Assembly: GCA_031316255.1 (NCBI GenBank) | Contig: JALDQW010000001.1 | Coordinates: 1,893,485-1,957,484 of the forward strand | Length of the DNA: 64,000 nt | Source of the DNA: Nitrosomonas sp. | GTDB lineage: Bacteria > Pseudomonadota > Gammaproteobacteria > Burkholderiales > Nitrosomonadaceae | Reading direction: 5' to 3' | In this document: positions 3,344-56,000 of the stretch, piece by piece | Position numbering within the stretch: the stretch's first letter is position 1 | How the letters are laid out: every line of letters begins with the position of its first letter | Made by a program: the position numbers and the translations under genes | Notes under the pieces: generated by a model | What the model saw: only the letters and a program-made list of their open reading frames with translations | Told to the model about the DNA's origin: nothing | Database searches by the model: none

Positions 3344-4333
3344 CTACGCCGCCTTCCGGTAAGGTTCGCCACGACTCAATATCGACCATGCGATACGTGC
3401 GTTCTTGTTGCGCCGTTCAGCCAGACTCTTTGCCCAGCGGCTGCGGACATCTTCTTTATTCTTGGCGGCATTGAGTGCAGCACGGGCACCGTGAACCAGC
3501 AGCATGCGTATATATTTATCACCCCGTTTGCTGATTCTACCGAGCCTGTTCTTGCCGCCGCTGGAATGTTGCCGCGGGGTCAAACCGAACCATGCAGCCA
3601 TGTCTCGTCCACTATTAAATTGAGTGCCGTTGCCCACTGCAGCAACCAACGCACTGGCAGTAACCGGCCCAATCCCTTCTACTTCAAGCAACCGCTTGAT
3701 CTGCTCATCCTCACGGGCTGCCTGGACAATCCTGGTGTCATAGGCTGCAATGCGATCATCCAGTGCGCGTAACTCTTCACTCAAACCTGCCAGCAATACA
3801 CGAAAATTCCCCGGCAATCCATTCTCACCGTCTTCCAGTAACTCAGGCAATGCCTTTCGCAATCGACCAATCGATGTGGCGACCACAATACCAAATTCGC
3901 CCAGTAAGCCCCGTATTTCATTCGTTAACGCTGTGCGCGATTTAATCAGCCGGGCGCGAATTCGGTGTCCCGCTTGAACAACCTGCTGTTCGACCGTTTT
4001 GACCGCAACAAAGCGCATGTTCGGTCGGCCAACGGCTTCACAAATCGCTTCCGCATCATTGGCATCGTTCTTGCCGCTCTTCACGTAAGGTTTTACAAAC
4101 TGCGGCGCCATCAATCGAATTTCATGACCTAACTTGCTCAGTTCGCGTGCCCAGTAATGCGCACTCCCACATGCTTCCATTCCAATTAAACAAGGTGGTA
4201 ATTTGCTGAAATAACCCAGCATCTGTGAACGGCGCAACTGTTTGCGAACCTGTACTTTACCCGCTCCGTCTACACCATGAATTTGGAATACCTGTTTTGC
4301 CAAATCAACTCCGGTACGTGCTATAGTCATCAT
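3344..4333 (-). CDS. IS110-family transposase
   Basis: A 329-residue, apparently full-length transposase. The N-terminal RuvC-like DEDD domain is visible: GVDLAKQVFQIHGVD (residues 8-22), CLIGMEACGSAHYWA (about 48-62) and KSGKNDANDAEAI (about 85-97). The C-terminal Tnp20 half has LLEVEGIGPVTASALVAAVG and the FGLTPRQHSSGGK block with the conserved serine of this family. It has no frame break, so it may be active. ATG at 4333 is preceded on the minus strand by GGGAGGAGATG, a good ribosome site, overlapped by a second ATG one codon on. Confidence 0.93.
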   Translation of the reverse strand: MMTIARTGVDLAKQVFQIHGVDGAGKVQVRKQLRRSQMLGYFSKLPPCLIGMEACGSAHYWARELSKLGHEIRLMAPQFVKPYVKSGKNDANDAEAICEAVGRPNMRFVAVKTVEQQVVQAGHRIRARLIKSRTALTNEIRGLLGEFGIVVATSIGRLRKALPELLEDGENGLPGNFRVLLAGLSEELRALDDRIAAYDTRIVQAAREDEQIKRLLEVEGIGPVTASALVAAVGNGTQFNSGRDMAAWFGLTPRQHSSGGKNRLGRISKRGDKYIRMLLVHGARAALNAAKNKEDVRSRWAKSLAERRNKNARIAWSILSRGEPYRKAA

Positions 4334-4502
4334 CTCCTCCCGCTTCTTGATTGCTAAAATCTTTAGTGTGGCACATTACGATGCCGTCGAGTGGGAGGAG
4401 TCCATTCCATTGCCCTACAAATTCCGGGCCTGACTTCGGCTCAACTTCCCAACTGATCCAGAAGGGTGCGTTGGACGCATCAGGCAGTTTGCCTTGCCAA
4501 AA

Positions 4503-4793
4503 TTATCTTGTTTGCCAGTTTTCCGGATGGCGGCTTGCATGCATGACAGCAACAATAATTGATATCTTTTCAATACGATAAAAAATACCAAATGGAAAAC
4601 GGCGGATGATCGCGTGGTGGGTTTTTCTGTGCACAATGGGAAACATACACGGACTGGTGGAAATGCGGGTGCACATTGCCAGGATTTCGTCCAGAAACTG
4701 TCCGCCAAGACCCGAGTTTTGTTTTTCATACCATGTGGCAGTCGATTTGATATCTTTCTCCGCTTCGGTGCAAAAATAGATTTTTAATTTCAC
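4503..4793 (-). CDS. RelE/ParE-type toxin
   Basis: 96 residues with the RelE/ParE plan: an early KIYFCTEAEKDIKSTATWYEKQ helix pair, FPIVHRKTHHAIIRRFPFGIFYRI in the central sheet, and a last strand with AVMHASRHPENWQTR, the HxxRxPxxW ending common in ParE/RelE toxins. Toxins of this kind cleave mRNA at the ribosome or poison gyrase; the sequence does not decide which. The start codon follows the stop of the antitoxin gene by 2 bp, antitoxin first, the usual order. Length is normal and no damage is seen. Confidence 0.85.
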   Translation of the reverse strand: MKLKIYFCTEAEKDIKSTATWYEKQNSGLGGQFLDEILAMCTRISTSPCMFPIVHRKTHHAIIRRFPFGIFYRIEKISIIVAVMHASRHPENWQTR

Positions 4794-4795
4794 AA

Positions 4796-5008
4796 TTACT
4801 TTCTGATTTCAGCGATCAGTTCGGTAGCTTCCCGGTCTTTTGTCCGGTCTGTTTCGTAGGTGTCCAGCCGCTGTTCAAGCATTTTTCTCTGAGCGGCCGT
4901 CAGTGGTAAAACGGATTGGTCGGCCGCGATACTGTCCCAGATATCCTCGACCAGTTTTATGCGTTCGTTGATTGAGAGTTCCTGGATGTTTGCGGGTAAG
5001 GTTTGCAT
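4796..5008 (-). CDS. antitoxin of addiction module (TIGR02574-like)
   Basis: 70 residues if started at the ATG at 5008, giving MQTLPANIQELSINERIKLV, typical for the short all-helical antitoxins of the TIGR02574 family (LSxxERLxLxxxIWDSI). The residues LVEDIWDSIAADQ and LDTYETD are the diagnostic parts. Longer in-frame readings reach 5098 but run through a repeat and look artefactual. It neutralises the toxin encoded 2 bp downstream and probably represses the operon together with it. Confidence 0.8.
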   Translation of the reverse strand: MQTLPANIQELSINERIKLVEDIWDSIAADQSVLPLTAAQRKMLEQRLDTYETDRTKDREATELIAEIRK

Positions 5009-5139
5009 ATTAACGCCCTGTTTTTGCATGTTTGCAGCATAACAGTTTCGGGGCAGGACGGGTAAGCTTTTGCCGTCCACCGTAACACAGGAAAACAATC
5101 AACCGGTGGATAGTGTTTCACCGACCCATCCAGGGAGAA

Positions 5140-5304
5140 TCGAGTCTGAATACGGCGCAATTTGTTGATACCGGCAATTATATCCTTCTCTATCACTCCA
5201 GAGTTCTCTGGCAAAGTACCGGTAATTTATCATGCCAGAGTGGATGCTTTTCAACGCTGATTTGCCCAAAATCTTGGTAAGTTTTACATGACGATTGACA
5301 TTGT
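5140..5304 (-). pseudogene. relic of IS21-family left end and istA start
   Basis: On the minus strand, 5304 down to 5230 matches the left end of the intact IS21 element at 27018-27090 (TGTCAATCG.CATGTAAAAC, AAATC.GCGTTGAAAAG). It continues into the first codons of its istA gene, reading MPENSGVIEKDIIAGI against [16 protein letters not shown]. The reading then loses all similarity, so only the end of an old copy is left. Confidence 0.75.
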
Positions 5305-5374
5305 AGACTGATAACTTTCAGATTATCGCTTGCAATTGTGTACCGAAATAAATTATAGTGCAGCGAGTATAGTT

Positions 5375-5408
5375 AAAATAAGGCTGGCAATTTTGCCAGC
5401 CTTATTTT
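5375..5408. terminator. bidirectional rho-independent terminator
   Basis: AAAATAAGGCTGGCAA and its exact reverse complement are separated by two bases, giving a 16-bp stem with A/T-rich outer arms that act as U-tracts in both directions. On the minus strand it stands at the end of the exporter-tail relic and would have terminated that operon. Confidence 0.75.
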
Positions 5409-5455
5409 TACACGATTGGACTAATATCAATTTTCCTTGCTGTAACTTTAAATTC
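5392..5455 (-). pseudogene. 3' tail of a second peptidase/ABC exporter gene
   Basis: Read on the minus strand the frame gives LKLQQGKLILVQSCKNKA, matching LRLHQGKLISAQSCKKQA, the C-terminus of the intact exporter (7178-9328); DNA identity is high over ~60 bp. Nothing of the rest of the gene remains, and the IS701 element now lies between the two copies. It suggests an earlier tandem duplication of the exporter/peptide locus. Confidence 0.65.
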
Positions 5456-5519
5456 TAGGGACACAACTCTTAACCGTTACCATAATTAATAATATGTCCC
5501 TAGAATTCGTGGGCATTAG

Positions 5520-6995
5520 TTCTACTTTGTCAGATTACCCAAAAGCCACTTTTCGCCTAGCAAAAGACTTTTTAGCGCTGAGCCGTCGCCGGTGCCGCTT
5601 ATGAATAACATCTGCCAGATCCTCGGTGGTAAGTTGTCTTTTTGGCAGCATGTGCGCTAATGCGGTCACCAGGTCATTGAAGGATAACATCGGCCATTGC
5701 TTGCGCCCAAGCATCTTTTGCTTGACCAAGAATAGCGTTGCCAGCATGACTAGCGCCATGTGATGATGCCATGCATCCCACCGGCGCACTTGATAATCAG
5801 CCATGCCACATTCGCTTTTTGCTTCATGAAAGCTGTGCTCAATGAAGAAACGCTGCGCCTGTACTTGCGCCAGTTGCTGTAACGGTGTTTCAAGTGACGC
5901 GTTGGATAAGCTATAATGCGATATTTCGCTAGCGCCAACCTCCCGCTTTGCCAGCAAGTGCCAGCGATGCGCTTGTTTCTCGCTGCCATCCCATACCCAT
6001 ACAAATGCATGAAGATATTCCGCTTCCAGCATACCTTTCTCGCCTTCGCGCAGTTTAATGCGCCGCCATACTGCATCCGGCTGCTCTGATACCCATTGAT
6101 CAACACGTATCGCCTCAGATTGTGCTTTCAGGCGTTTCGGTTGCCTGCCACGGCTATTCCAGGCAGGAATGCCCGGTTTTGGGTCTTCAAGATAAACCAT
6201 CTGCCGACAGTGAACATCAGCGACAAATGTGCAGCCAAGTTTATCAACACCACGCAAGAAAGCAGGATCCTTGCCATAGCCGCCATCAATGCCGACATAA
6301 CCAAAACGCACACCGCGTTGTTTGGCTGTTTCGATCATTGATAATGCAATCTCGCATTTGCTTTGATAATACTGGCATGCCTCAGGTATTGCTGCTTTCT
6401 TGCAACGATCCGAATCGCTCATCCAATGTTGTGGCAAATACAGGCGCGCATCAATCAAACTGGCCATGCTGTTTTGGCACAAACTGGCAAATACACCAAC
6501 CTGACAATTGTCTACCTTACCAAGACGGCCATTCCATTGTCGGGAAACACCTGCTGATGATTCGCCTTTCTTCGCAAAAGCGCTTTCATCGATAATCAAA
6601 ACAGCAGCAGAACCACCCAACAACGCATCCGTCTCAATCGCAATCTGCTCGCCAAATCCATTCCAGTCAATCGCGTCTGATGTCAGCATGTGTTGCATCG
6701 CCTGGTGGTCAACTTCATTGACTTCGCCCATGCGTAACATATTTGCTCGTTCAGATTGAAACAGTCCACGCAGGTAGCCATAGAATGTCGCTGACGCATC
6801 GCGCGTCGCCGATACAAAAAATGATGAAAATAACGATAAATGTGCGCTAAGCGCTTCTGGAAGCCCCTGAAGGGCAAATTGGAGTGACCGTTTAGTATTT
6901 TCACGACATGATCGTGATTAATAATTATTAAACAAAGTGTTATTATACATCAGTTTGATACACTTTTGGGGTCATTTGAATCTGACAAAGTAGAA
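5520..6995 (-). mobile_element. IS701-family insertion sequence
   Basis: The ends TTCTACTTTGTCAGATT (5520-5536) and AATCTGACAAAGTAGAA (6979-6995) are perfect 17-bp inverted repeats. TTAG flanks both sides (5516-5519 and 6996-6999), a 4-bp duplication agreeing with the YTAR target known for IS701. The element is ~1.48 kb with one transposase gene whose stop codon overlaps the left repeat. The insertion is recent enough to keep a perfect target duplication and lies 2 bp downstream of the stop codon of the secreted peptide gene. Confidence 0.88.
5535..6740 (-). CDS. IS701-family transposase
   Basis: 401 residues from the first ATG. DDE-type signature blocks of the family are present: VLIIDESAFAKKGESSAGV (first Asp), GKVDNCQVGVFAS, GYVGIDGGYGKDPAFL (second Asp), and RFFIEHSFHEAKSECGM (Glu). 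The family-like reading continues upstream in the same frame to about 6890 (GLPEALSAHLSLFSSFF, ATRDASATFYGYLRGLF), but that extension has no ATG, GTG or TTG before the stop at 6918. A GTG with a plausible start (MKILNGHSN) sits one frame away at 6904. So either a one-base frameshift lies near 6875-6900 or translation starts at an unusual codon; activity is uncertain. Confidence 0.88.
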   Translation of the reverse strand: MLRMGEVNEVDHQAMQHMLTSDAIDWNGFGEQIAIETDALLGGSAAVLIIDESAFAKKGESSAGVSRQWNGRLGKVDNCQVGVFASLCQNSMASLIDARLYLPQHWMSDSDRCKKAAIPEACQYYQSKCEIALSMIETAKQRGVRFGYVGIDGGYGKDPAFLRGVDKLGCTFVADVHCRQMVYLEDPKPGIPAWNSRGRQPKRLKAQSEAIRVDQWVSEQPDAVWRRIKLREGEKGMLEAEYLHAFVWVWDGSEKQAHRWHLLAKREVGASEISHYSLSNASLETPLQQLAQVQAQRFFIEHSFHEAKSECGMADYQVRRWDAWHHHMALVMLATLFLVKQKMLGRKQWPMLSFNDLVTALAHMLPKRQLTTEDLADVIHKRHRRRLSAKKSFARRKVAFG

Positions 6996-7001
6996 TTAGG
7001 C

Positions 7002-7154
7002 TTATATAGTAAAGACAGGGTCATGCCAATGACAATGCCAGTGGTCTCCATGTGGGATACAATGCCAATAACCACCATTAACACTTTGTAGCTGATCATC
7101 TGTTAATTCATGTATTACATTTTCATCAGTTACATCATTTGTTAATTCGTTCAT
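7002..7154 (-). CDS. double-glycine leader peptide, putative bacteriocin-like secreted peptide
   Basis: A 50-residue gene with a strong ribosome site (AGGAGA, 6 bp before the ATG at 7154). The first 28 residues form a typical acidic double-glycine leader: MNELTNDVTDENVIHELTDD then QLQSVNGG. Cleavage after GG would free a 22-residue core starting YWHCIPHGDH and ending WHCHWHDPVFTI: two Cys, five His and three Trp (WHC twice, WH three times). It is 23 bp downstream of, and on the same strand as, an ABC exporter with a C39 peptidase domain, the enzyme class that removes such leaders during export. The core matches no bacteriocin I know; metal binding, antimicrobial action or signalling are all possible. 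The gene-exporter link is strongly supported; function is unknown. Confidence 0.8.
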   Translation of the reverse strand: MNELTNDVTDENVIHELTDDQLQSVNGGYWHCIPHGDHWHCHWHDPVFTI

Positions 7155-7177
7155 GATAATTCTCCTTTTAGTTAAAA

Positions 7178-9328
7178 TTAGCTGACGGAATTGTCAGCCT
7201 GCTTTTTACACGATTGGGCTGATATCAATTTCCCTTGGTGTAACCTTAAAACTCTGTCGGCTTTGTTAATCGTTTCCAAACGGTGTGCAATGATGATGCG
7301 CGTTATCGACAGATGTTGTATTTGTTGACTGATTTTTGCCTCATTATCAATGTCGAGATGACTGGTTGCTTCATCCAAGAATAAGATGGTGGGTTGTTTA
7401 TATAGAGCGCGAGCCAGGAACAATCGCTGTACTTGCCCACCGGAGAGATTAGACCCCATGTCACCCACCAGCGCGTTATAACCCATGGTCATTTGCACAA
7501 TATCTTTATGAATAGCCGCTAAATGAGCACATTGTTCTATTCGCAGGTAATTGGGTTCGGGGTCAAAAAAACTGATGTTGTCTGCAATGGAACCTGCCAG
7601 AAGCGTGTCAGCTTGCATAACAGCGGCAAGTTGTTGGCGGTATCGTTTTAAACCAATATGGGTGATGTCTTGACCGTCAAGTAAGATTCGTCCTGAAGTG
7701 GGTTGCAGCAACCCCAACATTAGTTTGATCAGGGTGGTTTTCCCGCCACCTGAGTCACCTGTTATCGCTACTGAATCACCCGCTTCAATGGTAAGGCTGA
7801 GATTATCAATAATTTTGCGTTCGCCTGTACCGTAGCTAAAACTCACATTTTCTAGCGTTAATTCACCTCTTGTCTCAGGCAAAAAGGCATTGCCTTCCCG
7901 ATGTTTTTCCTGAGGATGCAGCGCAATATCTGAGATACGATCCAGATGCAGACGCATCATTTTAAACTGGATGATTTGTTCAATCAGATTAGCAAAACGC
8001 TCAGTGAACATCCCTTTATAGGCGATAAAAGCCAATGCCATGCCAATCGACAACACACCACCCATTACAATCAATGCGGCAAAATAAATAACCAGGACAT
8101 TTTCCAAACCGAACAATAGTTTGTTTGCAGCATCAAAACTGATCTTCAGTTTTCCGACACGAATATCTGCATTAATTACTTCGGCGTAGCGATTTTGCCA
8201 AATACCTTGACGTTGCGCCTCATTACCAAAGAGTTTGATAGTTTGAATACCACGTATATTTTCCAGGAAATTCGTTTGCTCTTTAGCCTTGTTCTGAATA
8301 GATTCTTCAGTAGCCTGATGCAGTGGACGATAAAGTGCCAGACGCAATAGTGTGTATAAAGCAATGGCGATCAACACGACTACCGTTAATTGCACGCTGT
8401 AGAGTAGCATCATTCCCAATATCGCTAGGGACATGACGCCATCAACCAATGCTTCTACTAAACCGGTTGTCATGCGCTCTCTAATATGTGCCAAGGAACC
8501 AAATCGTGAAACGATATCGCCAATATGACGTGATTCGAAGTAATTCATTGGAAGTCTGAGCAAGTGGCGCAATAGGTTGACGCCCATTTGCATATTCAGC
8601 AGACTTGATAACCGAAGAATTAACCAGCTACGGACAACGGTTGTTATTACACTAATAATACTTAACAAAGCAAAACCAATTGCAAGAACAACGAGTAATG
8701 GTTGGTCATGGCTGATCAAAACTTCATCCACAACCCATTGCATATAATATGGCGTTGCCAATACAAATAATTGCAATACGATGGATAGCGCAAAAAGGTT
8801 AATGAGTGCCCATTTCAGTCCAGTTATTTTGCTCCATAACTGGGACAATTTCATACGCTGCCGCTCTTGCTTTTGCTCGAAATTGCTGGTTGGCGTCAGT
8901 TCAAGAGCAATGCCGGTAAAATGTTTACTGAATTCTTCTAATGTCAGGATGCGTTTTCCTACTGCCGGATCATTAACTGTAAATTTTTCACCCTTGACCT
9001 GAGTCAGCACTACAAAATGGTTCATATCCCAATGCAAAATACAGGGGAGCGCCAGTTTATGTGCCTCCGCTATTGGGCATTTAAGTGCCCGGCTGGCGAG
9101 ACCCAAACTATCTCCCAGTTCAATCAGTTGTTTTAAATTCATGCCCTTTAAATTGGCAGAAAATCGCTGGCGCATTGCTGGCATGTCGAGTTGATGACCA
9201 TGGTAGGAGGCGACCATGGCCATAGTCGCCAAGCCACACTCTGCCACTTCTGCTTGCAGGATTAATGGCACGCGCTTTTTATTAGAAAACTCCAGCAGGC
9301 TTGCAGCATTTTCAGCAATTTGCGACAT
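7178..9328 (-). CDS. peptidase-containing ABC exporter (bacteriocin/peptide secretion)
   Basis: 716 residues, full length for a PCAT. Residues ~20-145 are a C39 peptidase: QAEVAECGLATMAMVASYHG with catalytic Cys31, His104 in HWDMNHFVVL and Asp120 in VNDPAVG. Residues ~170-450 form the six-helix transmembrane domain. The C-terminal ATPase has Walker A GDSGGGKTT, signature LSGGQVQR, Walker B ILFLDEAT and the switch His in IIAHRLETI. It should cleave the GG leader of the adjacent peptide (7002-7154) and export it through the inner membrane. It overlaps the HlyD-type gene by one base, so translation is coupled. Closest in layout to RaxB/MchF/CvaB-type exporters. Confidence 0.93.
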   Translation of the reverse strand: MSQIAENAASLLEFSNKKRVPLILQAEVAECGLATMAMVASYHGHQLDMPAMRQRFSANLKGMNLKQLIELGDSLGLASRALKCPIAEAHKLALPCILHWDMNHFVVLTQVKGEKFTVNDPAVGKRILTLEEFSKHFTGIALELTPTSNFEQKQERQRMKLSQLWSKITGLKWALINLFALSIVLQLFVLATPYYMQWVVDEVLISHDQPLLVVLAIGFALLSIISVITTVVRSWLILRLSSLLNMQMGVNLLRHLLRLPMNYFESRHIGDIVSRFGSLAHIRERMTTGLVEALVDGVMSLAILGMMLLYSVQLTVVVLIAIALYTLLRLALYRPLHQATEESIQNKAKEQTNFLENIRGIQTIKLFGNEAQRQGIWQNRYAEVINADIRVGKLKISFDAANKLLFGLENVLVIYFAALIVMGGVLSIGMALAFIAYKGMFTERFANLIEQIIQFKMMRLHLDRISDIALHPQEKHREGNAFLPETRGELTLENVSFSYGTGERKIIDNLSLTIEAGDSVAITGDSGGGKTTLIKLMLGLLQPTSGRILLDGQDITHIGLKRYRQQLAAVMQADTLLAGSIADNISFFDPEPNYLRIEQCAHLAAIHKDIVQMTMGYNALVGDMGSNLSGGQVQRLFLARALYKQPTILFLDEATSHLDIDNEAKISQQIQHLSITRIIIAHRLETINKADRVLRLHQGKLISAQSCKKQADNSVS

Positions 9329-10575
9329 TAGCTGATCCTCCCACCCAAGCTATAAATGGGGTCCAAAATCCATTCAATGAGCGACCGTCGATCAAGAATG
9401 ATGTCGGCATCAAATAACATGCCGCTTTTTAAATTGAACTCTTTACCGTAGCCTCGAATAACTTGTTGGTCCAGCTTGGCTTGCAGGCGATAAACCGGTT
9501 CATCAAGATTAATTGGTAAATCGGCTTCGCCTTGGGTAATTAATGCTTTGTCTATACGGGTAATTCTGCTTTCGAGAAAACCAAAGCGTTGATGGGGAAA
9601 GGCTTCAAAACGTAATCTGGCAATGTCTCCAGATTGAACAAAACCAGCTGATCGTGTAGGCAACAATAACTCAGCCACCAGCTCGGCGCCCTCAGGTAAC
9701 AAGGTTAATAGCGGTCGCGTGGGATTAAGTGTTTCGCCTTTTGCCACTTGAATCGCAGTGACCATACCATCATGGGTTGCTCTTATTACATAGTTATAAT
9801 TTGTTTTTGTCTCACTTAATTGGTTATTTATGTCAGATTTTCTGCGTTCAATTTCTAGAATTTTTAATTGGTATTGTTCGGGAATATTTTTTTTATCATG
9901 CTCTAATTGTTGCAATTCGTCTTGTTGCTGTAATAACGTTTGTTCAAGAGACTCGACTTCTTGTCTAACCGTTAAGTAGTTTTCTTTCTCCTGTTGAAAA
10001 CCCAACTCAGAAATAAAACCTTCTTGATATAATTTTTCATGCTGGTCTCGCCGTTGGGTTAATAACCTCAATCTTTCCTGTAGTAACATTTTTTGATTCA
10101 AGGTAACTGTGCGAGAATGGGCTAATACAGCATGACGTTGATTTATTCTCGATAATTCTTGTTCTTCCAGTCGCTGGTTTTGATTGGCTTCATCTTCTAA
10201 AAGTCGAATCTGTTTTGTTAGTTCACTAATTAGTCTTTCACTGAGATCTTCTCCAGAAGTCATATTCTGTCGTGTAATAATGCTAATTAAAGGCATTCCT
10301 GTTTTAACCCTATCGCCTTCTTTAACGTAGATCTCTTTTACGGTGCCTGTCCGGTTCGCATAGCTTTTTATGATGCCTTTGTCAGGACGCAGGAACCCTT
10401 GGACTGTTTCTTTTCTCGCATAGTGCGAGGTAAATAAAAAAATCATTATTGTTGCCACAATAACAACAATAATCGTGACAGTTGTCTTAATTGATAGGGG
10501 TTGAGCAAGAGAGATAGACCCTACTAACCGTTGCGATTGTGCGTCTAGTACTTCCTGCCTAAATAATTTTGACAA
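9328..10575 (-). CDS. HlyD-family membrane fusion protein of peptide exporter
   Basis: 415 residues: short cytoplasmic N-terminus, one transmembrane helix (TIIVVIVATIMIFLF, about residues 33-48), a first lipoyl-like half (KGIIKSYANRTGTVKEIYVKEG), a long coiled coil (about residues 120-255, rich in Glu/Gln/Leu), the second half (GMVTAIQVAKGETLNPTRPLLTLLP) and a beta-barrel region near the end. It should bridge the inner-membrane exporter to an outer-membrane channel, as RaxA/MchE/CvaA do; no TolC gene is in the window. It is first in the minus-strand operon adaptor-exporter-peptide. The 629-bp gap upstream probably holds its promoter. Confidence 0.9.
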   Translation of the reverse strand: MSKLFRQEVLDAQSQRLVGSISLAQPLSIKTTVTIIVVIVATIMIFLFTSHYARKETVQGFLRPDKGIIKSYANRTGTVKEIYVKEGDRVKTGMPLISIITRQNMTSGEDLSERLISELTKQIRLLEDEANQNQRLEEQELSRINQRHAVLAHSRTVTLNQKMLLQERLRLLTQRRDQHEKLYQEGFISELGFQQEKENYLTVRQEVESLEQTLLQQQDELQQLEHDKKNIPEQYQLKILEIERRKSDINNQLSETKTNYNYVIRATHDGMVTAIQVAKGETLNPTRPLLTLLPEGAELVAELLLPTRSAGFVQSGDIARLRFEAFPHQRFGFLESRITRIDKALITQGEADLPINLDEPVYRLQAKLDQQVIRGYGKEFNLKSGMLFDADIILDRRSLIEWILDPIYSLGGRIS

Positions 10576-11204
10576 AAGTATTCCCCAAAAGAAAAGTTAC
10601 TGACTTAAAACACTCTATGACCAACCGATTTCTTTATAAAACTGTTGTAAAAGTATATTTAAAGAAAAATTCATGTTCTGTGAGTTTTGTCACATAATGT
10701 ACTTACAAGTCCTTAAATGCCCGAGTTTGCGCAAGGAAATAAGGGGAAGTGACCTAGTGATTTCGTAAATTAAAACCATTCAGCAGAGCTATAAGGATAC
10801 TTCTAGACGCTTAGTCCATCTTAGACGGCTGCAAGACGTCGTTTGAATGAACATCATAACTTTCTGACTTGCTGTACCGACGGTTGCCGGGTAATGACGG
10901 CAATTGAGGTTGTGATGTGGTCAAGGATTTTGTGACACTCCAGCTGTGCTTCCGTTTATAACGTTGAATTTTTAGCGGCGCTCAGCATTGGGGGCAGTTC
11001 CAAAATGTGGTGTTTCTCACATCGTCTTTTTTTTATTTTGACTACAGTATCCATCAGTTTGATGTTAAAGCGCGGTTATTTTTCATTTACGTTGATTTCT
11101 TGATAAATGGCTCCGGTTGTTTTGCTTGCCTATGAGCTATTCGATGGTGACCGGCATTTGCCGCGAAACGATGAAAAAATACCGAATGACTAAAGGTAAC
11201 TTGC
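10576..11204. other. 629-bp divergent intergenic region
   Basis: Separates the minus-strand peptide secretion operon from the plus-strand lipid-type cluster, so promoters for both must lie here. I searched both strands by eye for another double-glycine peptide and saw none. No convincing hairpin, tRNA or known riboswitch was recognised. Confidence 0.5.
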
Positions 11205-13046
11205 ATGAATGTGACAGAATTAAAAAAGATAGAGGCGGCGTTGAATGACACCGGAATGGCGGATTGCACGGCGTTGCAGCATGACACTATTGTGGCCGTG
11301 GCACGCCAGCACGCCCTGAATCTGGGTGATCGGAAATATATCACCTGGCTCGACAATGGAAAAACCGAATCAGATTCATACAGTTTTGCGGCGCTTGACC
11401 GGCAGGCCCGCTCGCTGGCGGTGCAATTGCAGGCTTTGGTGCACAGCCGTCAGCATAACCATGGTCAGGCGGACTATCCGGCTGCGTTGATCTTAACCCA
11501 ACCCGGCCTGGAGTTTGTTAAGGCTTTTTTTGCCTGCCTGTACGCCGGTATTGTTGCGGTGCCTACTTATCCTCTCAAGCGGGGAGAAACTTCACAACGC
11601 TTAAGTGTGCTGGTTGAAAACTCCCGGGCGAGTATGGTGCTGGCTGATAGCAAGAGTTATGCACAGATCGCTCAATTTCCGGATGTATGCATGCAGGCGC
11701 CTCTGGTTCGCCTGGATGATTTGTCGCCCGATTTGCACGAAAACTGGAAATTTCCTGATATTGACAGCCAGTCACCGGCTTTTTATCAGTACACCTCAGG
11801 CTCCACAGGTCAGTCTAAAGGCGTCATTGTTACCCATGGCAATCTGATGAGTAATGAACGCGTCATCGCCGAGGCCATGGGACATGACAGCGACACTGTC
11901 GTTGTGGGGTGGTTGCCGCTTTTTCATGACATGGGGCTGATCGGCAATTTGCTGCAACCGTTTTGTCTGGGCGCATCGTGCTACCTAATGTCGCCGCTTG
12001 CTTTCATTGCCAATCCGGTCCGCTGGTTGCAGGCGATTTCAAAGTATCGGGCCACTTCCAGTGGCGGGCCTAATTTTGCGTATGACCTGTGTATCGCCCG
12101 CACCACTGCCGAGCAGAGGGCGGAACTGGATTTGAGTCACTGGCAGGTGGCGTTTAATGGTTCCGAGCCGATTCGGGCGGCTACCCTGGATCGTTTCAGC
12201 CAGACTTTTGCCGGTTGCGGTTTCAACAGATCGGCGTTTTTTCCCTGTTATGGCATGGCGGAAAGCACACTGCTGGTAACCGGCAGTTCGCCGTACCAGC
12301 TTCCTGCCGTATTGACGGTGGATAAACGCGAGCTTGAACTGGGTAAGGTGCAACCGCTGGCGACAATACATTCCACTGCGACACAAACCGGCAATGCGGA
12401 AATTGAAGTAAGTGCGCCGCAAACCGTGCAACTGGTTTCCTCCGGGAAAACCTATCAGGACTGTCAGGTCAGGATTGTGCATCCTGAAACCTGTGTGGCG
12501 TTGCCAGCGCAGCATGTTGGCGAAATCTGGGTGCGCGGCAGTAGCGTGGCGAATGGATATAAGGACAACGACCATTTAACTGATCGTACATTTAAAGCAC
12601 GCCTTGCCGAGGCGGACCAGAGCGATACGTATTTACGTACAGGCGACCTGGGTTTTTTGTATAAAGGCGAACTTTTTGTCACCGGCCGTCACAAGGACCT
12701 GATTATTATCAATGGCCGCAATCATTATCCGCAGGATCTCGAACAGACCGTCATTCAGGCGCATCCTGCACTGGCCGACTGCCGCGTTGCCGCTTTCGGC
12801 ATCGATGTCGATACGCAAGAGCGCCTAGTCGTTGTGGCGTCTATTGGTAAAAAAATCGCCAATAACATTCCTGTGCAGGAGATCCGGGATTCGGTGGCAG
12901 AAGTCATAACGCGCCGGCATGGTTTAAAACTGCAAGCACTGGTTTTTACGACTTCGCGCTTGCCTGAGACGTCCAGCGGCAAGCTGCAACGTTCTCGGTG
13001 CAGGCAAATGTACCAGAACGGAGAGTTTGAAACCAGGCGGTTATAG
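11205..13046 (+). CDS. fatty acyl-AMP ligase (FAAL)
   Basis: 613 residues of the ANL adenylating superfamily. The phosphate loop YTSGSTGQSKGVIVTHGNLM starts near residue 196, followed by GWLPLFHDMGLIGNLLQPF and FFPCYGMAESTLLVTG, all typical of the FAAL branch; the C-terminal part has LRTGDLGFLYKGELFVTGRHKDLIIINGRNHYPQDLE, and the FAAL-type NGRNHYPQDLE motif. FAALs activate a fatty acid to acyl-adenylate and pass it to an acyl carrier protein rather than to CoA. The next gene encodes such a carrier. It opens a cluster of seven co-directional genes, so it probably loads the fatty acyl starter. Start at 11205 has AAGG upstream. Confidence 0.93.
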   Translation: MNVTELKKIEAALNDTGMADCTALQHDTIVAVARQHALNLGDRKYITWLDNGKTESDSYSFAALDRQARSLAVQLQALVHSRQHNHGQADYPAALILTQPGLEFVKAFFACLYAGIVAVPTYPLKRGETSQRLSVLVENSRASMVLADSKSYAQIAQFPDVCMQAPLVRLDDLSPDLHENWKFPDIDSQSPAFYQYTSGSTGQSKGVIVTHGNLMSNERVIAEAMGHDSDTVVVGWLPLFHDMGLIGNLLQPFCLGASCYLMSPLAFIANPVRWLQAISKYRATSSGGPNFAYDLCIARTTAEQRAELDLSHWQVAFNGSEPIRAATLDRFSQTFAGCGFNRSAFFPCYGMAESTLLVTGSSPYQLPAVLTVDKRELELGKVQPLATIHSTATQTGNAEIEVSAPQTVQLVSSGKTYQDCQVRIVHPETCVALPAQHVGEIWVRGSSVANGYKDNDHLTDRTFKARLAEADQSDTYLRTGDLGFLYKGELFVTGRHKDLIIINGRNHYPQDLEQTVIQAHPALADCRVAAFGIDVDTQERLVVVASIGKKIANNIPVQEIRDSVAEVITRRHGLKLQALVFTTSRLPETSSGKLQRSRCRQMYQNGEFETRRL

Positions 13047-13094
13047 AAAGGAAATTCGCTCAATATTCACTGACTCAAGAAACTGGAGTTTTTT

Positions 13095-13346
13095 ATGACC
13101 TATCAATCGATTTTACAATGGATAAGCATTCGGCTTGCCGAGTTGGTCAAGATCAATGTTGATCAGATAGACCCGCAGTTGCCGTTTGACCGCTACGGCC
13201 TGGATTCGCTGAGTGCGGTTACTTTAATCGGCGAGCTCGGCGACTGGCTGCAACTCGAACTGGACCCCAGCATAGTCTATGACTACCCCACAATCGAACA
13301 ACTCAGCAAATATGTATCGGAACAAATCAATGGAGGTGATGCGTGA
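13095..13346 (+). CDS. acyl carrier protein
   Basis: 83 residues with the carrier motif YGLDSLSAV; Ser38 is the phosphopantetheine site. Predicted helices and the acidic second half (YDYPTIEQLSKYV) are as in FAAL/PKS-type stand-alone carriers. GGAG precedes the ATG by a normal distance. It lies 48 bp behind the FAAL gene and overlaps the desaturase start by 4 bases. Inferred job: hold the acyl chain delivered by the FAAL for the desaturase and the alpha-oxoamine synthase. Confidence 0.92.
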   Translation: MTYQSILQWISIRLAELVKINVDQIDPQLPFDRYGLDSLSAVTLIGELGDWLQLELDPSIVYDYPTIEQLSKYVSEQINGGDA

Positions 13347-14236
13347 GTACTTTTTCAGAAATCGAATATCAAACCCGGTCAGAGTCGGAATTTAATCGGC
13401 TCTTGGAAAAGCCTGCTTTTTCCTGGCCGACATTCCTGCTGTTTGTATTTATCGTCGCAAATTTTTGTTATGCGACTTATTCGGCCGTTACAGGCACGAT
13501 GTCAATACTGGCTGCAATTGCACATAACAGTCTATCGGCCTATATCGCGTATACAATCATGCATGAAGCTGCACATGGGCTTGTTTGCGCGAACAAGACG
13601 GTCAACGACTGGGTGGGCCGGATCAGTTTGCTGGCGATTTCGGTGATGCCGTTTTTCAGTACGTATCGTACGCTACATATGACACATCACCGCTATGTGA
13701 ACGACCCAAAAAATGATCCGGATTTTTTTTGTTGCGTTGGTCCTGCCTGGCTGCTTCCTTTCCGGTGGATGGTAATGGACGTGGCCTACGTGACGTTTTT
13801 TTTAAAGGAATGTTACCGGCACCGTCCCCGCGCGGAAAAAGTGGAATTTTGGCTGGCGGTGATTTTTGGCCTGACGTTATTGACGGCGATCATAGTCAGT
13901 GGGCACTTGATGACTTTTGTGCTGATTTACCTCATACCCACCAGAATCGCGTTATTTTTTCTGGTGCTGACGTTTGATTATTTGCCCCACTATCCCCACG
14001 ATACCCTGGCGGACGACAATAAATTCCGCGCCACCAATAACCGGGTGGGTATGGAATGGCTGATTACACCGCTGTTATTGGGACAAAACTATCATCTGAC
14101 CCATCATTTGTATCCGAGCGCCCCGTTTTACCGCTACCGGAAAGTCTGGCAGGCGCGGCAGCACTTCCATGACGCCAATAATCCGGCTTTAGTCAAATTT
14201 TACAAGCTAAAACCCATGCAGGATATGAACAACTAA
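13343..14236 (+). CDS. membrane fatty acid desaturase
   Basis: 297 residues, membrane-bound di-iron desaturase/hydroxylase type. Three histidine boxes are visible: HEAAH (about residue 75), HMTHHRYVNDP (about 113) and HLTHHLYPSAPFYRY (about 252), with hydrophobic helices between. It starts at GTG 13343 inside the end of the carrier gene; the near-perfect ribosome site GGAGGTGAT supports this. It may desaturate or hydroxylate the carrier-bound acyl chain. A second, different desaturase is at 41942-42937. Position of the double bond cannot be read from sequence. Confidence 0.88.
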   Translation: MSTFSEIEYQTRSESEFNRLLEKPAFSWPTFLLFVFIVANFCYATYSAVTGTMSILAAIAHNSLSAYIAYTIMHEAAHGLVCANKTVNDWVGRISLLAISVMPFFSTYRTLHMTHHRYVNDPKNDPDFFCCVGPAWLLPFRWMVMDVAYVTFFLKECYRHRPRAEKVEFWLAVIFGLTLLTAIIVSGHLMTFVLIYLIPTRIALFFLVLTFDYLPHYPHDTLADDNKFRATNNRVGMEWLITPLLLGQNYHLTHHLYPSAPFYRYRKVWQARQHFHDANNPALVKFYKLKPMQDMNN

Positions 14237-14258
14237 CAGATAAAGAGCAGTGTTATAA

Positions 14259-14399
14259 GGGTGCCTCTAAAAATTCATAATTCTAAACAAGACGAGGCGA
14301 GAACAAAAAATTTTGACGCAGCATATGATTGATATGTAAGGAAACATTTTTTGTAAACAACGAAGTATTGTAACGAAGTATGGATTTTTAGAGGTGCCC
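14259..14399. repeat. MITE family A, copy 3, with ATAA target duplication
   Basis: A 141-bp element with inverted ends: GGGTGCCTCTAAAAATTC on the left, ATTTTTAGAGGTGCCC on the right. ATAA is found on both flanks (14255-14258 and 14400-14403), giving an uninterrupted pre-insertion sequence GTGTTATAACAC, itself a palindrome. No coding capacity. It separates the desaturase from the oxoamine-synthase gene. Confidence 0.82.
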
Positions 14400-14434
14400 A
14401 TAACACGACTGTTAACGCAAGGAGCAAGTTAACC

Positions 14435-15664
14435 ATGAATGCAAGTTTAAATATACCTTCCTGGTACCTGGAGTACATGCAACCGGCAACCGAATATATT
14501 TCGCGCCTGAATCCTTTTCCCTTCGATCAGCCTGCGGATATTTCCAATTACATCGCGTTGCACCAGAATGATTATCTGCGTCTGGGCAACCACCCGGAAG
14601 TGATTGAGGCGCGTGCACGGGCAAATGAGAGAAACCGTAATGAAGCTTTTTTATCAACCGCTTACGGCGGCGGTTCCGGCGAGTGTGAAGCCTTTCGCAC
14701 TAAAATTGCGCAGGTAATGGATGCGCAGGACGCCATGTTGACGACCTCCGGCTGGGCGGCCAATGTTGGTATTATGGAGGCAATCACGCCCCTGTTTAAA
14801 CCTATCTATATTGACAAACATGCCCACGCTTCATTGTATGACGGTATAAAGCTGTCACTGGGCAAACTTGTGGTGGTCAATCACAATGATCCCGATCATC
14901 TGGTGGAGCGTATCAAAGTGAATGGCCCGGGCATTGTGGTGATCGATGCGGTCTACAGTACCGATGGCTCCCTGGGCGATGTCGAACGGTATGTGGAAAT
15001 TTGCGAGCAATACGACTGCGTGCTGGTGCTGGACGAAGCTCATTCTTTCGGGATTTATGGCAACGGCGGGGGGCTGGCGGTGGAACTCGGATTGCAGCAC
15101 CGGGTTCATTTCAGAACCATTAGCCTCAATAAAGCGCTCGGCGGGCACGGTGGTTTGATTGCCGGTGACGCTCAAATGATGCGGCTGGTTAGAACCCGCT
15201 GCCGCTCGGTCATATTCAGTTCGGCGACTTCGAGTGTTTCCGCAGCCGGTCACGAAGCTGCACTCGATATCATTATCCGCGATCCGCAAAGAGTGCAACG
15301 CTGTTTGAGCAATGCGGCTATTCTGCGTGAGCGTTTTGCCGATGTCCAGGTCGATACTGGCGATAGCCAGAGCCAGATCGTGTCAATCATGTTTGACAGC
15401 GAACAGGGTGCCTGTGAATTCTACGGCAGGATGCGCGACGCCGGGATTTTGACATCGGTATTCCTGTACCCGGCCATACCTCTGGGTCAGGGCCTGGTGC
15501 GCTTCTCGGTGCATTCGGAGCTCAGTAGCCAGGAAATCGATCAGACTGTTGCCTGTACAGTGCAGGTGTTAAACGAGATGGACAAAACAAATTCACTGTC
15601 CATGCCATACAAAAATATGCTTAATCAGCCCTATGCCGTCAAGAATGGAGTACGCGTATCATGA
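14435..15664 (+). CDS. alpha-oxoamine synthase (serine palmitoyltransferase/KBL-like)
   Basis: 409 residues, PLP-dependent fold type I. Visible: STAYGGGSGECEAFRTK (substrate loop), HAHASLYDGIKLS with the PLP-stacking His, VIDAVYSTDGSLG, LDEAHSFGIYGNGG with Asp200 and His203, and SLNKALGGHGG with the Schiff-base Lys233. The family joins an amino acid to an acyl thioester with loss of CO2 (serine palmitoyltransferase, KBL, BioF, CqsA). Here the acyl donor is probably the carrier-bound chain made by the upstream genes. Together with the reductase-like SDR at the cluster end it most resembles the first two steps of sphingoid or capnine-type lipid formation. The amino acid substrate is not known. 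A CAI-1-like signal synthase is an alternative. Confidence 0.85.
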   Translation: MNASLNIPSWYLEYMQPATEYISRLNPFPFDQPADISNYIALHQNDYLRLGNHPEVIEARARANERNRNEAFLSTAYGGGSGECEAFRTKIAQVMDAQDAMLTTSGWAANVGIMEAITPLFKPIYIDKHAHASLYDGIKLSLGKLVVVNHNDPDHLVERIKVNGPGIVVIDAVYSTDGSLGDVERYVEICEQYDCVLVLDEAHSFGIYGNGGGLAVELGLQHRVHFRTISLNKALGGHGGLIAGDAQMMRLVRTRCRSVIFSSATSSVSAAGHEAALDIIIRDPQRVQRCLSNAAILRERFADVQVDTGDSQSQIVSIMFDSEQGACEFYGRMRDAGILTSVFLYPAIPLGQGLVRFSVHSELSSQEIDQTVACTVQVLNEMDKTNSLSMPYKNMLNQPYAVKNGVRVS

Positions 15665-53038: not shown

Positions 53039-56000
53039 TTATAAACCCTCATCGAGCAGAATGACGCTGCCAATGACGGCAACGGCTTCGTTGCTGTTGG
53101 CGACATCCACCGCAAGCCATTCACGCGTGATTTCGCCATTTTCAAGCCGTAATTGCTGTTGATTCAGTTCAGTTTCGGTGGCCGATCTTCCGAACGTCTG
53201 GCTGTAGAGCGCCTGAATATAATCGGTGTTGTCCAGATCATTCAGACTCGAGTTGTTTTGGAACCAGTCGAGAATGATCTTGGGATTGACGTGATCAGCG
53301 ATAGCCTTACGTCCAAGCTGCCATTCGCCAATGGTGGCATCACGGTCAAAGAAAGTCTGGAACAATCGGCCGAGTATGCCTTCCACCTGATTGTGTGCAA
53401 GTAAAACATTCTCGCCGCTGTCAAAAGCGATCATTTCCACATTTCTGAGACTGAGCATGGCGCCGTCCTCTAGCCGCGTAATCTCAACGCTGTCGTTGAT
53501 CCGTTCAAGATGAACATCCTCGCGGCCGCCATGCATTTTGAGCACATCGTGTCCACCGCCACCGTCCACATTCAGCGCTAGTCCCAACGGCAGATAACCT
53601 TGATTGTCACTGTTGCCACCAGTCAGGTTGCGCACACTATCCAGGCGTAAAATATCGGGATTATCGTTTAGTCCGGCAAGCAGTTCATCAGTTGTTTTCT
53701 GTTGCAGACCGACTGCTTCAGGAAGGTTTAGAAAATCGTCGACAATACGGCTTACATCCGTTCCCGACCAGTTTTGCATGGCGTCGACTTCCGTAGTTGT
53801 CAGGTCCCGGCCAAGCCAGGTTTTGGCCAGATGGTGCGCCACGGCCTCGTTGCCAGAATACGCGACCGCTAGATTCGGGCCGGTTTCGAACTGGATTAGT
53901 TCAATATCGGTTAGCACGTCCACAACGCCGTCATTATGGGTGAGCGTGACATGATTGCCGTCAATCTGTATCGCATAATCGGATGACCGACCTGCCTGTA
54001 CTGCAATGTCAAAGCCCAGTCCACCGTTGAGCGCATCGTTTCCGGCGCCGCCTGACAAAATATCATGACCTGCGCCGCCGTAAACAACGTCATTGCCATC
54101 ATCGCCGTGTGTCTGGTCGTTTCCGCCAAGGCTGCCGATGGTGTCATCGCCACCGCCGCCGAATAAAATATCGTCGTCCGCGCCCAGAACAATAAACTGA
54201 TTCTGATGATCGCCCACAACAAAATTTTCACCCGCGCCGCCAACGACACGCACCGCGCCGGTAATTGCCGCAAACGCGACATTGTCGAGTTGTATGACTG
54301 TACCCGATGGCAAATTGCTCGCGTCAATAATCAGCGCGAGCTTGCCGCCGCCCGGAAAGTCTGAGCCGGTAATGATAATCGGCTGGCCGGGTGGATTTGT
54401 GTCGCTGATCAAAGGCGTGATCGTCTGGACAGAAACGATTTCATCGGCTGCCAGTGAAGCGATAAAATCCTGGCCGTGTACTGTCATATTCAGTAACGTT
54501 TCACTGTCAGTGGTTGTCGTCTGTTCAATGCGTTGAACCAGGTCGGTGATGGCATCCTGTGTGTTCATTGGCTCGGCCTGGCCGTTGACGGTAAGACCGA
54601 CGCCGATGGGTAAACTTACCGTTAGAATCGGATCGCCCGAACCATTGATCAAGATGGGGATATCTGCATGTGTTTCAGACAGTGTATCCGGTTCATCAAT
54701 GCGTGTACTATCGATAATCGATACGGTCAATGTTGTCGATCCGTCTGACTCAGTTTGTTTGCTGACGGTAACACCATCGACTGTTTCTGTTGTCACGATT
54801 GGTGTTTCAGTCGGGTCTGGGGCGATTGCTCCACCGCCTCCGCCACCTGACGGTGGCGTCACAACTGTTACGGTAATGCCATTGCCAGTTGCGTCAGCTA
54901 CATTGACGGCCGCATCCGCACCGGCGGCCCAGTCTTCTGCAGCGGCAAGATTATAAGTAGTCGCATCACTTGCAGTAGTTCCATTAGTATTGAGCAGGGC
55001 ATTGACCGCAGCCTTGTCGGTTGCACTCAAAGTCAGTGTAAACGCGGTAGCGGAAGTAATATCGACATCGGCGGTATCGGTCAATGTGTACGTGCCGCCA
55101 CCCAAACCGGTCAAGGTTAACAGGCTGGCGTCAATGTCATTGGTTGTTCCTGTCAGCTTGGGCAAGCCAGTTCCAGTGACAGCCAATACGCCGGTGCCTG
55201 TATTGTATGTTGCTGAAGTAATCGTCGGCGTGGCAACATTGCTGGCCGTAATGCCGTTGCCGGTTGCGTCGACGATATTGACCGCTGCATCCGCGCCGGC
55301 GGCCCAGTCTTCTGCGGCGGCAAGATTGTATGTGGTGCCGCTGGTTGATGTTGTGCCGTCTTTATTGATAATCTGATTAACTGCAGCTTTGTCGGTTGCG
55401 CTCAATGTTAGTGTGAACGCTGTACTGGAGGTAATATCGACATTGGCGGTATCGGTCAGGGTATAGGTTTCGCCGCCTTCGCCGGTAAAAGTGAATGTGT
55501 TGGCGATAATGTCGTTTGTCGCGCCGCCGGCATTCAGGAAACCGGAGCCGGTGACTACCAACGCACCTGAGTTTGCATCGTATGTAGCTGAAGTGATGGC
55601 TGGAACAGGCACATTGCTGACGGAAATACCGGATGTGTCGGAGATATCGAATGGGGCCGTTGACGGACATGCGCACCAGTCATCGGCTGCGGAAAGATTG
55701 TAAGTGGTGCCGCCCACCGATGATGTGCCGATTTTATTGAGCAGCAGATTAACGGCTGCTTTGTCTGTCGCACTCAGTGTTACGGTAAATTGTGAAGTGC
55801 TGTCAAGCTCGACATCGGCAGAATCGGTTAAGGTATACGTGCCACCGCCTTCACCGGTAAATGTCAGTTGTGAAACATCGATATCATCGCCGCCGGCATC
55901 AGCTTCAAAATTACTGCCGGTGACAACCAGTACCCCGGTCGTTGCATTGTATGTGCTTGCAGTGAACATAGGGTTAATGGTGACGTTAACGCCGCCTTCG

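Follow-up and report, generated by a model that had tools for sequence, protein, structure and literature searches.

A Trp/His/Cys-rich peptide with a double-glycine leader behind a C39-peptidase exporter in a Nitrosomonas genome

The export locus and its precursor peptide

The DNA analysed here, called the window throughout, is a stretch of 64,000 nucleotides from a Nitrosomonas sp. genome (assembly GCA_031316255.1, contig JALDQW010000001.1, positions 1,893,485 to 1,957,484). It carries, on one strand, genes for an HlyD-type membrane-fusion adaptor and a C39-peptidase ABC exporter and, 23 bp behind the exporter stop (gap 7155-7177), a short gene for a candidate secreted peptide (Table 1). The encoded precursor consists of the leader MNELTNDVTDENVIHELTDDQLQSVNGG followed by the core YWHCIPHGDHWHCHWHDPVFTI, and the ribosome site AAAAGGAG, rated good, lies 7 nt ahead of the ATG. 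The original prediction, made from the letters of the window, had given the gene its coordinates, strand, ribosome site and distance from the exporter, and had described a leader ending in VNGG and a 22-residue core with two WHC motifs and no Lys. All of this agreed with our analysis, and the core is also devoid of Arg. Our overall reading, to which we assign a probability of roughly 0.65, is that the gene encodes a genuine double-glycine (GG) precursor that would be processed by the C39 domain and exported, its product possibly being a metal-binding or disulfide-closed antagonist.

The Peptidase_C39 domain of the exporter scored 116.4 bits against a cut-off of 22, and PF00664 and PF00005 in the exporter and PF13437 and PF16576 in the adaptor were likewise over their cut-offs. 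The C39 domain aligns with solved C39 domains (6mpz, E 1.2e-23), with the catalytic residues Q25, C31, H104 and D120 in place. Together with the leader models described below, the domain scores and this alignment bear out the proposal that a double-glycine precursor lies beside a C39 exporter in which the expected residues are present. Membership in the NHLP export systems was considered and rejected, as the exporter scored under both equivalog cut-offs (TIGR03796, 523.3 vs. 853.3; TIGR03797, 379.5 vs. 709.4).

The peptide leader passed two NCBIfam models, NF033456 barely (24.3 bits vs. a cut-off of 24) and TIGR01847 (18.2 vs. 15.7). The resemblance to the CCRG-2 family RiPP of NF033456 is one of leaders only, since the model consists of 18 leader positions and is silent on the core. 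We also built a leader profile from 115 leaders of other loci, with the window excluded. With 15.5 bits, the peptide open reading frame (ORF) came out on top of the 773 window ORFs of 25-140 aa, the runner-up reaching 5.3, and the maximum score in 30 random 64-kb sequences generated from the dinucleotide transitions of the window was 10.3. The strongest sign of a genuine leader comes from the same genome: window positions 7183-7116, comprising the 5' untranslated region (UTR) and the start of the leader, are 82% identical over 68 bp to G000:C1:1392165-1392229. This segment (positions 4315-4379 of locus L061) is the start of a second GG-peptide gene, MNELTINELESVAGG, which has an unrelated core and lies directly ahead of a second pair of HlyD and C39 genes in this genome. 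Judged by its sequence, the leader carried by the 50-codon gene is of the true double-glycine type, and a leader module common to two unrelated cores in one genome suggests shuffling between leaders and cores. A literature search found no paper, in the collection covered, that combines a double-glycine leader with Nitrosomonas.

Table 1. Features of the export locus and its immediate surroundings (window coordinates).
Feature	Position	Strand	Details
HlyD-type membrane-fusion adaptor	10575-9328	minus	415 aa, TTG start; HlyD_D23 and HlyD_3 over cut-offs
C39-peptidase ABC exporter	9328-7178	minus	716 aa; Peptidase_C39, ABC_membrane and ABC_tran over cut-offs
Peptide 5' region	7155-7200	minus	AAAAGGAG ribosome site and 7-bp hairpin overlapping the exporter 3' end
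Double-glycine precursor gene	7154-7002	minus	50 codons, ATG start; leader of 28 aa ending in VNGG, core of 22 aa
IS701-family insertion	5520-6995	minus	transposase 6740-5535; target duplication TTAG at 5516-5519 and 6996-6999
Degenerate second copy of 7250-7169 (end of the exporter gene with its hairpin, and beginning of the peptide 5' region)	5370-5452	minus	83 bp, 82% identical

The core and the relatives of its exporter

The core holds 6 His, 3 Trp and 2 Cys, including the two WHC motifs, together with one Thr and no Ser. Its fraction of Trp, His and Cys (W+H+C) is 0.50, above that of all 144 compared cores, which were taken without correction for relatedness and in part from overlapping loci (L100 and L118). 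The next-highest values were 0.37, for a peptide from the same genus (MMSAHVSHCGPCCEADDCC, locus L063), and then 0.22. The compared cores have at least 10 residues, with a median length of 39, and derive from 149 ORFs over the leader threshold in the exporter-matching loci L061-L167. Bacteriocin_IIc (PF10439) stayed under its cut-off on the peptide (14.2 vs. 27.1), as did bacteriocin subfamily models such as TIGR03949 (16.2 vs. 21.5) and NF038034 (15.8 vs. 37). Composition and model score thus both uphold the earlier suggestion that the core is unlike the class II bacteriocins. The export system is a known one, and the peptide would be a new, orphan cargo for it.

Searches for relatives of the core gave weak matches. 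Among related genomes, matches at E up to 1 occurred in 68 of 199 and, in a class sample, matches at E up to 0.03 occurred in 7 of 369 (this genome included in both cases); the best others, with E values of 0.012 and 7.2e-4, respectively, were not convincing, nor was any further one. Among plasmids, a protein search returned two unconvincing records (E 2 and 10) and a DNA search with 6930-7180 a single record (E 0.8). Scans of genome_contigs and viral_contigs yielded 48 and 12 pattern stretches, with 0 confirmed in either; because both scans depend on exact matches over 8 residues, they could overlook a relative whose sequence has diverged. Four weak matches that we inspected (L191, L193, L195 and L003) turned out to be antisense, out of frame or inside long unrelated ORFs. 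The best of them, YWSCAFVPHSDHWH in L191, is antisense to a 511-aa ORF and was judged to be due to chance. A DNA pattern for HxxHWHCH was present in 18 of 398 phylum genomes (this one included), vs. 2 control matches in one genome, and was rejected as a real family. In the 17 other genomes the longest open stretch was antisense to the motif in 13 (12 of them in one frame), on the same strand but in another frame in 3, and in the motif's own frame in a single case (L233, 582 codons open); no GG leader was found in the 25 residues before the motif in any of the 17.

Exporters 50-52% identical to that of the window occur in 13 other genomes of the genus (E up to 1e-90; 199 relatives searched, this genome included), and the genome's own second C39 exporter is 51% identical to it. 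In a one-per-species genome collection, where confirmation succeeded for 506 of 516 pattern stretches and the top 80 were retained, the best matches were two Colwellia (80 and 78%), a Thalassotalea (77%) and other marine gammaproteobacteria, and a Shewanella oneidensis plasmid encodes an exporter with 71.6% identity. A quick 64-row tree, restricted to matches with at least 650 aligned residues and omitting the majority of loci past L112, placed the window exporter, with a support of 100, inside a marine gammaproteobacterial clade of 22 rows, apart from a 14-row clade of the genus. The adaptor is 65% identical to that of locus L098 and 32-36% identical to those of 12 genus loci. The GC content of the operon is 0.38-0.44 vs. 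0.43-0.54 in adjacent windows, another low stretch (0.396) occurring at 23-24 kb. With the exporter 80% identical to Colwellia vs. 50-52% to the genus, the exporter-adaptor pair was apparently acquired from marine gammaproteobacteria. The AMO family (PF02461) was detected at three places of the genome and in none of 14 control genomes, and because of these three places the source organism can fairly be presumed to be an ammonia oxidiser; the acquisition would then be a transfer from marine gammaproteobacteria into such an organism.

It had been argued that metal binding would make sense in a copper-dependent nitrifier. We consider this argument weak, because the exporter and adaptor group with marine gammaproteobacteria and because NF033456 is over its cut-off in only 1 of 85 genomes of the genus, namely at two places, both in the genome studied here. 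At E up to 1, the same model matched in 14 of the 85 genus genomes and in 5 of 14 control genomes, none of the controls being over the cut-off.

As for the cargo of related export loci, 62 of the 80 nearest exporter loci contain at least one ORF with a GG-leader score of at least 9 bits, and at 25 of the 80 a GG-leader ORF starts within 600 bp downstream of the exporter on the same strand. The conservation expected by the original prediction in relatives that keep the exporter therefore holds for the leader but not for the core, as none resembling it was found. In the GG-peptide loci with the closest exporters, which belong to marine gammaproteobacteria such as Colwellia, Thalassotalea and Shewanella (L088-L167), the leaders often end in VNGG and start with ELT or ELN, as here, but many of the cores are hydrophobic and rich in Gly and Ala, and none has the WHC core. 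When genus and order loci are included, the mean hydropathy exceeds 0.5 in 54 of 122 distinct cores. Since peptides of the genus (L063, L065/L069 and L064) hold several of the top W+H+C places, Cys/His cores may be commoner in the genus than in the marine set.

Two loci of the genus are worth describing in their own right. L063 (8318-8799; genome G082) encodes two adjoining GG peptides whose long leaders are nearly the same but whose cores differ greatly, one core being the Cys/His-rich MMSAHVSHCGPCCEADDCC, a pattern in which the leader is kept and the core swapped. The second export locus of the present genome (L061 4344-8939; G000:C1 about 1392194-1396789) encodes HlyD and C39 proteins and three GG-leader peptides with the cores AYYFRWSTAP..., AGGLFF... 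and GVALFG..., the first being the peptide whose 5' UTR and beginning of the leader match those of the window peptide.

Proposed function and its alternatives

In the mechanism we propose, the C39 domain would cut behind VNGG, and the 22-residue core would be exported in one step via HlyD and a TolC-type channel encoded elsewhere. More tentatively, the core might, once outside the cell, bind Zn2+ or Cu via HxxHxH and its two Cys, or form a Cys4-Cys13 disulfide, and it could act as a small antagonistic (microcin- or bacteriocin-like) peptide. The antagonistic role is suggested because the cargo of this exporter type is usually antagonistic; metal handling or signalling would be conceivable roles too. 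No modifying enzyme was recognised near the peptide gene. A cargo of odd composition could be carried, given that the microcin V system is described, in an excerpt of PMC10231218, as exporting small proteins largely independently of their chemical properties.

The HGDHWH of the core has HxxHxH spacing, and in the PDB the segment PHGDHWH matched PHGDHYH of pneumococcal histidine-triad proteins (9p1v, 2cs7). A passage of PMC3842936 describes the HxxHxH of PhtD as binding Zn2+ through H83, H86 and H88 plus E63. Because HGDHWH shares the spacing of this proven Zn2+-binding motif, metal binding by the core is plausible, and its two Cys, nine positions apart, could serve as additional metal ligands or form a disulfide. 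Motif spacing is the one point in favour of the metal-binding or redox role put forward in the original prediction. Should the core prove to be both secreted and metal-binding, it would represent a minimal metal-binding C39 cargo, easily synthesised and tested, outside the hydrophobic bacteriocin mould. A fuller picture, which we regard as speculative and somewhat doubtful, would have a novel type of exported GG peptide whose core folds round Zn2+ or Cu via HxxHxH and the two Cys, with a marine-derived exporter and a leader module shared with an unrelated core, in an ammonia oxidiser that thereby fights over or handles metal.

Several observations weigh against our overall reading of a processed and exported precursor. 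In the collections searched, the core is known from this one genome only, so purifying selection on it cannot be demonstrated, and as a product-less singleton it would be an interesting orphan, short of a discovery. The locus shares the C39, ABC membrane and ATPase domains, the HlyD protein and the adjacent GG precursor with C39-peptidase ABC exporters (PCAT/AMS; microcin V-type type I secretion), but its core make-up is unseen in the compared sets, and the ORFs listed and scanned near the peptide gene included none recognisable as an immunity gene. It also contains no outer-membrane channel gene. The export system had been called self-contained, which is apt for exporter, adaptor and precursor, found together, but not for the TolC-type channel, as the 14 OEP-domain matches lie at seven places elsewhere in the genome. 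Promoter evidence was not found in 5000-11300, where promoter-like sites (13 vs. 13.5 expected) and terminator-like sites (8 vs. 6.0 expected) were both at chance level. The 7-bp hairpin at the exporter end (-10.9 kcal/mol; z -2.9 in a 46-nt fragment, z -1.0 in an 81-nt fragment) would be a weak terminator or attenuator at most, but it could weaken read-through into the peptide gene. The PDB matches to histidine-triad proteins are non-significant (E 0.63 and 0.67, with a polyphenol oxidase next at E 1), and no match to the polyhistidine triad family was obtained in Pfam at E up to 1; the likeness to the streptococcal polyhistidine triad (Pht) proteins, which are large surface proteins unlike a GG peptide, is for this reason convergence at most.

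Further points of this kind concern the reading frame. TGG CAT TGT read one base on gives GGC ATT GT, so that W/H/C codons turn into a hydrophobic frame. Indeed, directly after GG, frame +1 reads IGIVSHMETTGIVIGMTLSLLYK, a hydrophobic stretch in an open frame (7099-6950) that resembles the cores common near the nearest exporters, and with each of three codon tables frame +1 has a slight edge over frame 0 in synonymous codon fit. The core was, moreover, selected for being W/H/C-rich, and such cores are absent from the comparison set. Alternatively, the original core could have been hydrophobic, Gly/Ile/Val-rich and of the bacteriocin type, and the one we read could be out of frame with it owing to a mutation or assembly error near the GG codons; the gene would then be a decaying bacteriocin in a locus that holds an insertion sequence (IS) and a degenerate exporter remnant. 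We think this unlikely. In 20,000 synonymous recodings of each peptide, made with each of three codon tables, frame +1 of the recoded frame-0 peptide was at least as hydrophobic as observed in fractions of 0.32, 0.71 and 0.70, whereas the recoded frame +1 peptide gave 11 W/H/C in an open frame 0 in 2, 0 and 1 of the 20,000. For 122 other cores, 244 readings in the wrong frames were compared, and none reached a W+H+C of 0.5 (best 0.48 and 0.43). Leader, core and stop share one open frame, and the best match of frame +1 among these 122 cores was non-significant (E 0.78; for frame 0, E 14). From the recoding asymmetry and the lack of W/H/C-rich out-of-frame readings, frame 0 seems to be the one under constraint.

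Export of a frame-0 core would also be compatible with a secreted metallophore or metal buffer, which binds Zn2+ or Cu and returns it or keeps it away. Six His and two Cys within 22 residues would suit such a role, as would the HxxHxH that forms a proven Zn2+ site in Pht proteins according to the passage of PMC3842936. However, no uptake, receptor or metal-regulator gene was recognised in the 15 window ORFs scanned against Pfam, a scan in which the sizeable ORF 1459-2913 had no family and which stopped short of the ORFs from 15661 on. The confinement of the core to one genome and the different cargo of the nearest exporters likewise make us consider a metallophore improbable. Cross-linking of the core in a lanthipeptide-like manner, with the transporter acting as a LanT, is brought to mind by L098, the locus with the closest adaptor, which combines HlyD and C39 with a Cys-rich GG precursor and a LanM that scores 324.7 bits (cut-off 304) and is likely a class II lanthipeptide cluster. 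Yet just one of the 107 loci L061-L167 has such a LanM, the single Thr and missing Ser of our core speak against cross-linking, and, barring an unknown enzyme, LanM-type modification was rejected for this genome since no LanM match at E up to 1 exists in the whole of it; we regard this explanation as very improbable. L098 itself (3739-10868; Alteromonadales bacterium alter-6D02) also encodes a protein with weak, under cut-off matches to CPBP proteases.

Surroundings of the locus

The ends of the IS701-family element and its 4-bp target duplication were fixed by comparison with copies elsewhere in the genome; one copy of the transposase gene lies at 11091-12296 of L061. Truncation of the peptide gene by this element was rejected. 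The element sits just past the stop codon (7004-7002), which lies before the TTAG duplication, so the insertion did not create the stop. To the left of the element, the degenerate exporter-end copy contains a strong 15-bp hairpin (-22.5 kcal/mol) and adjoins a short inverted repeat, TTCTAGGGACA...TGTCCCTAGAA. This copy suggests that the locus has been duplicated and pruned. The IS701 element and the remnant occupy the place where an immunity gene could have been, and an element behind the peptide gene, such as an immunity gene, may have been lost.

Further out, a 135-bp repeat (5166-5300) recurs at ten other places of the genome with 85-87% identity, and a pair of genes for a ParE-type toxin and an Unstab_antitox antitoxin (4503-5098, minus strand) lies between an IS110-type transposase gene (3344-4333) and IS701. 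On the other side, a divergent cluster (11205-15664, plus strand) encodes an AMP-binding (fatty acyl-AMP ligase-like) protein, an acyl carrier protein, a fatty acid desaturase and a class I/II aminotransferase, and looks like a lipid or lipo-amino-acid pathway judging from these predicted products. The window also contains an ORF of 2492 codons at 53039-60517 on the minus strand.

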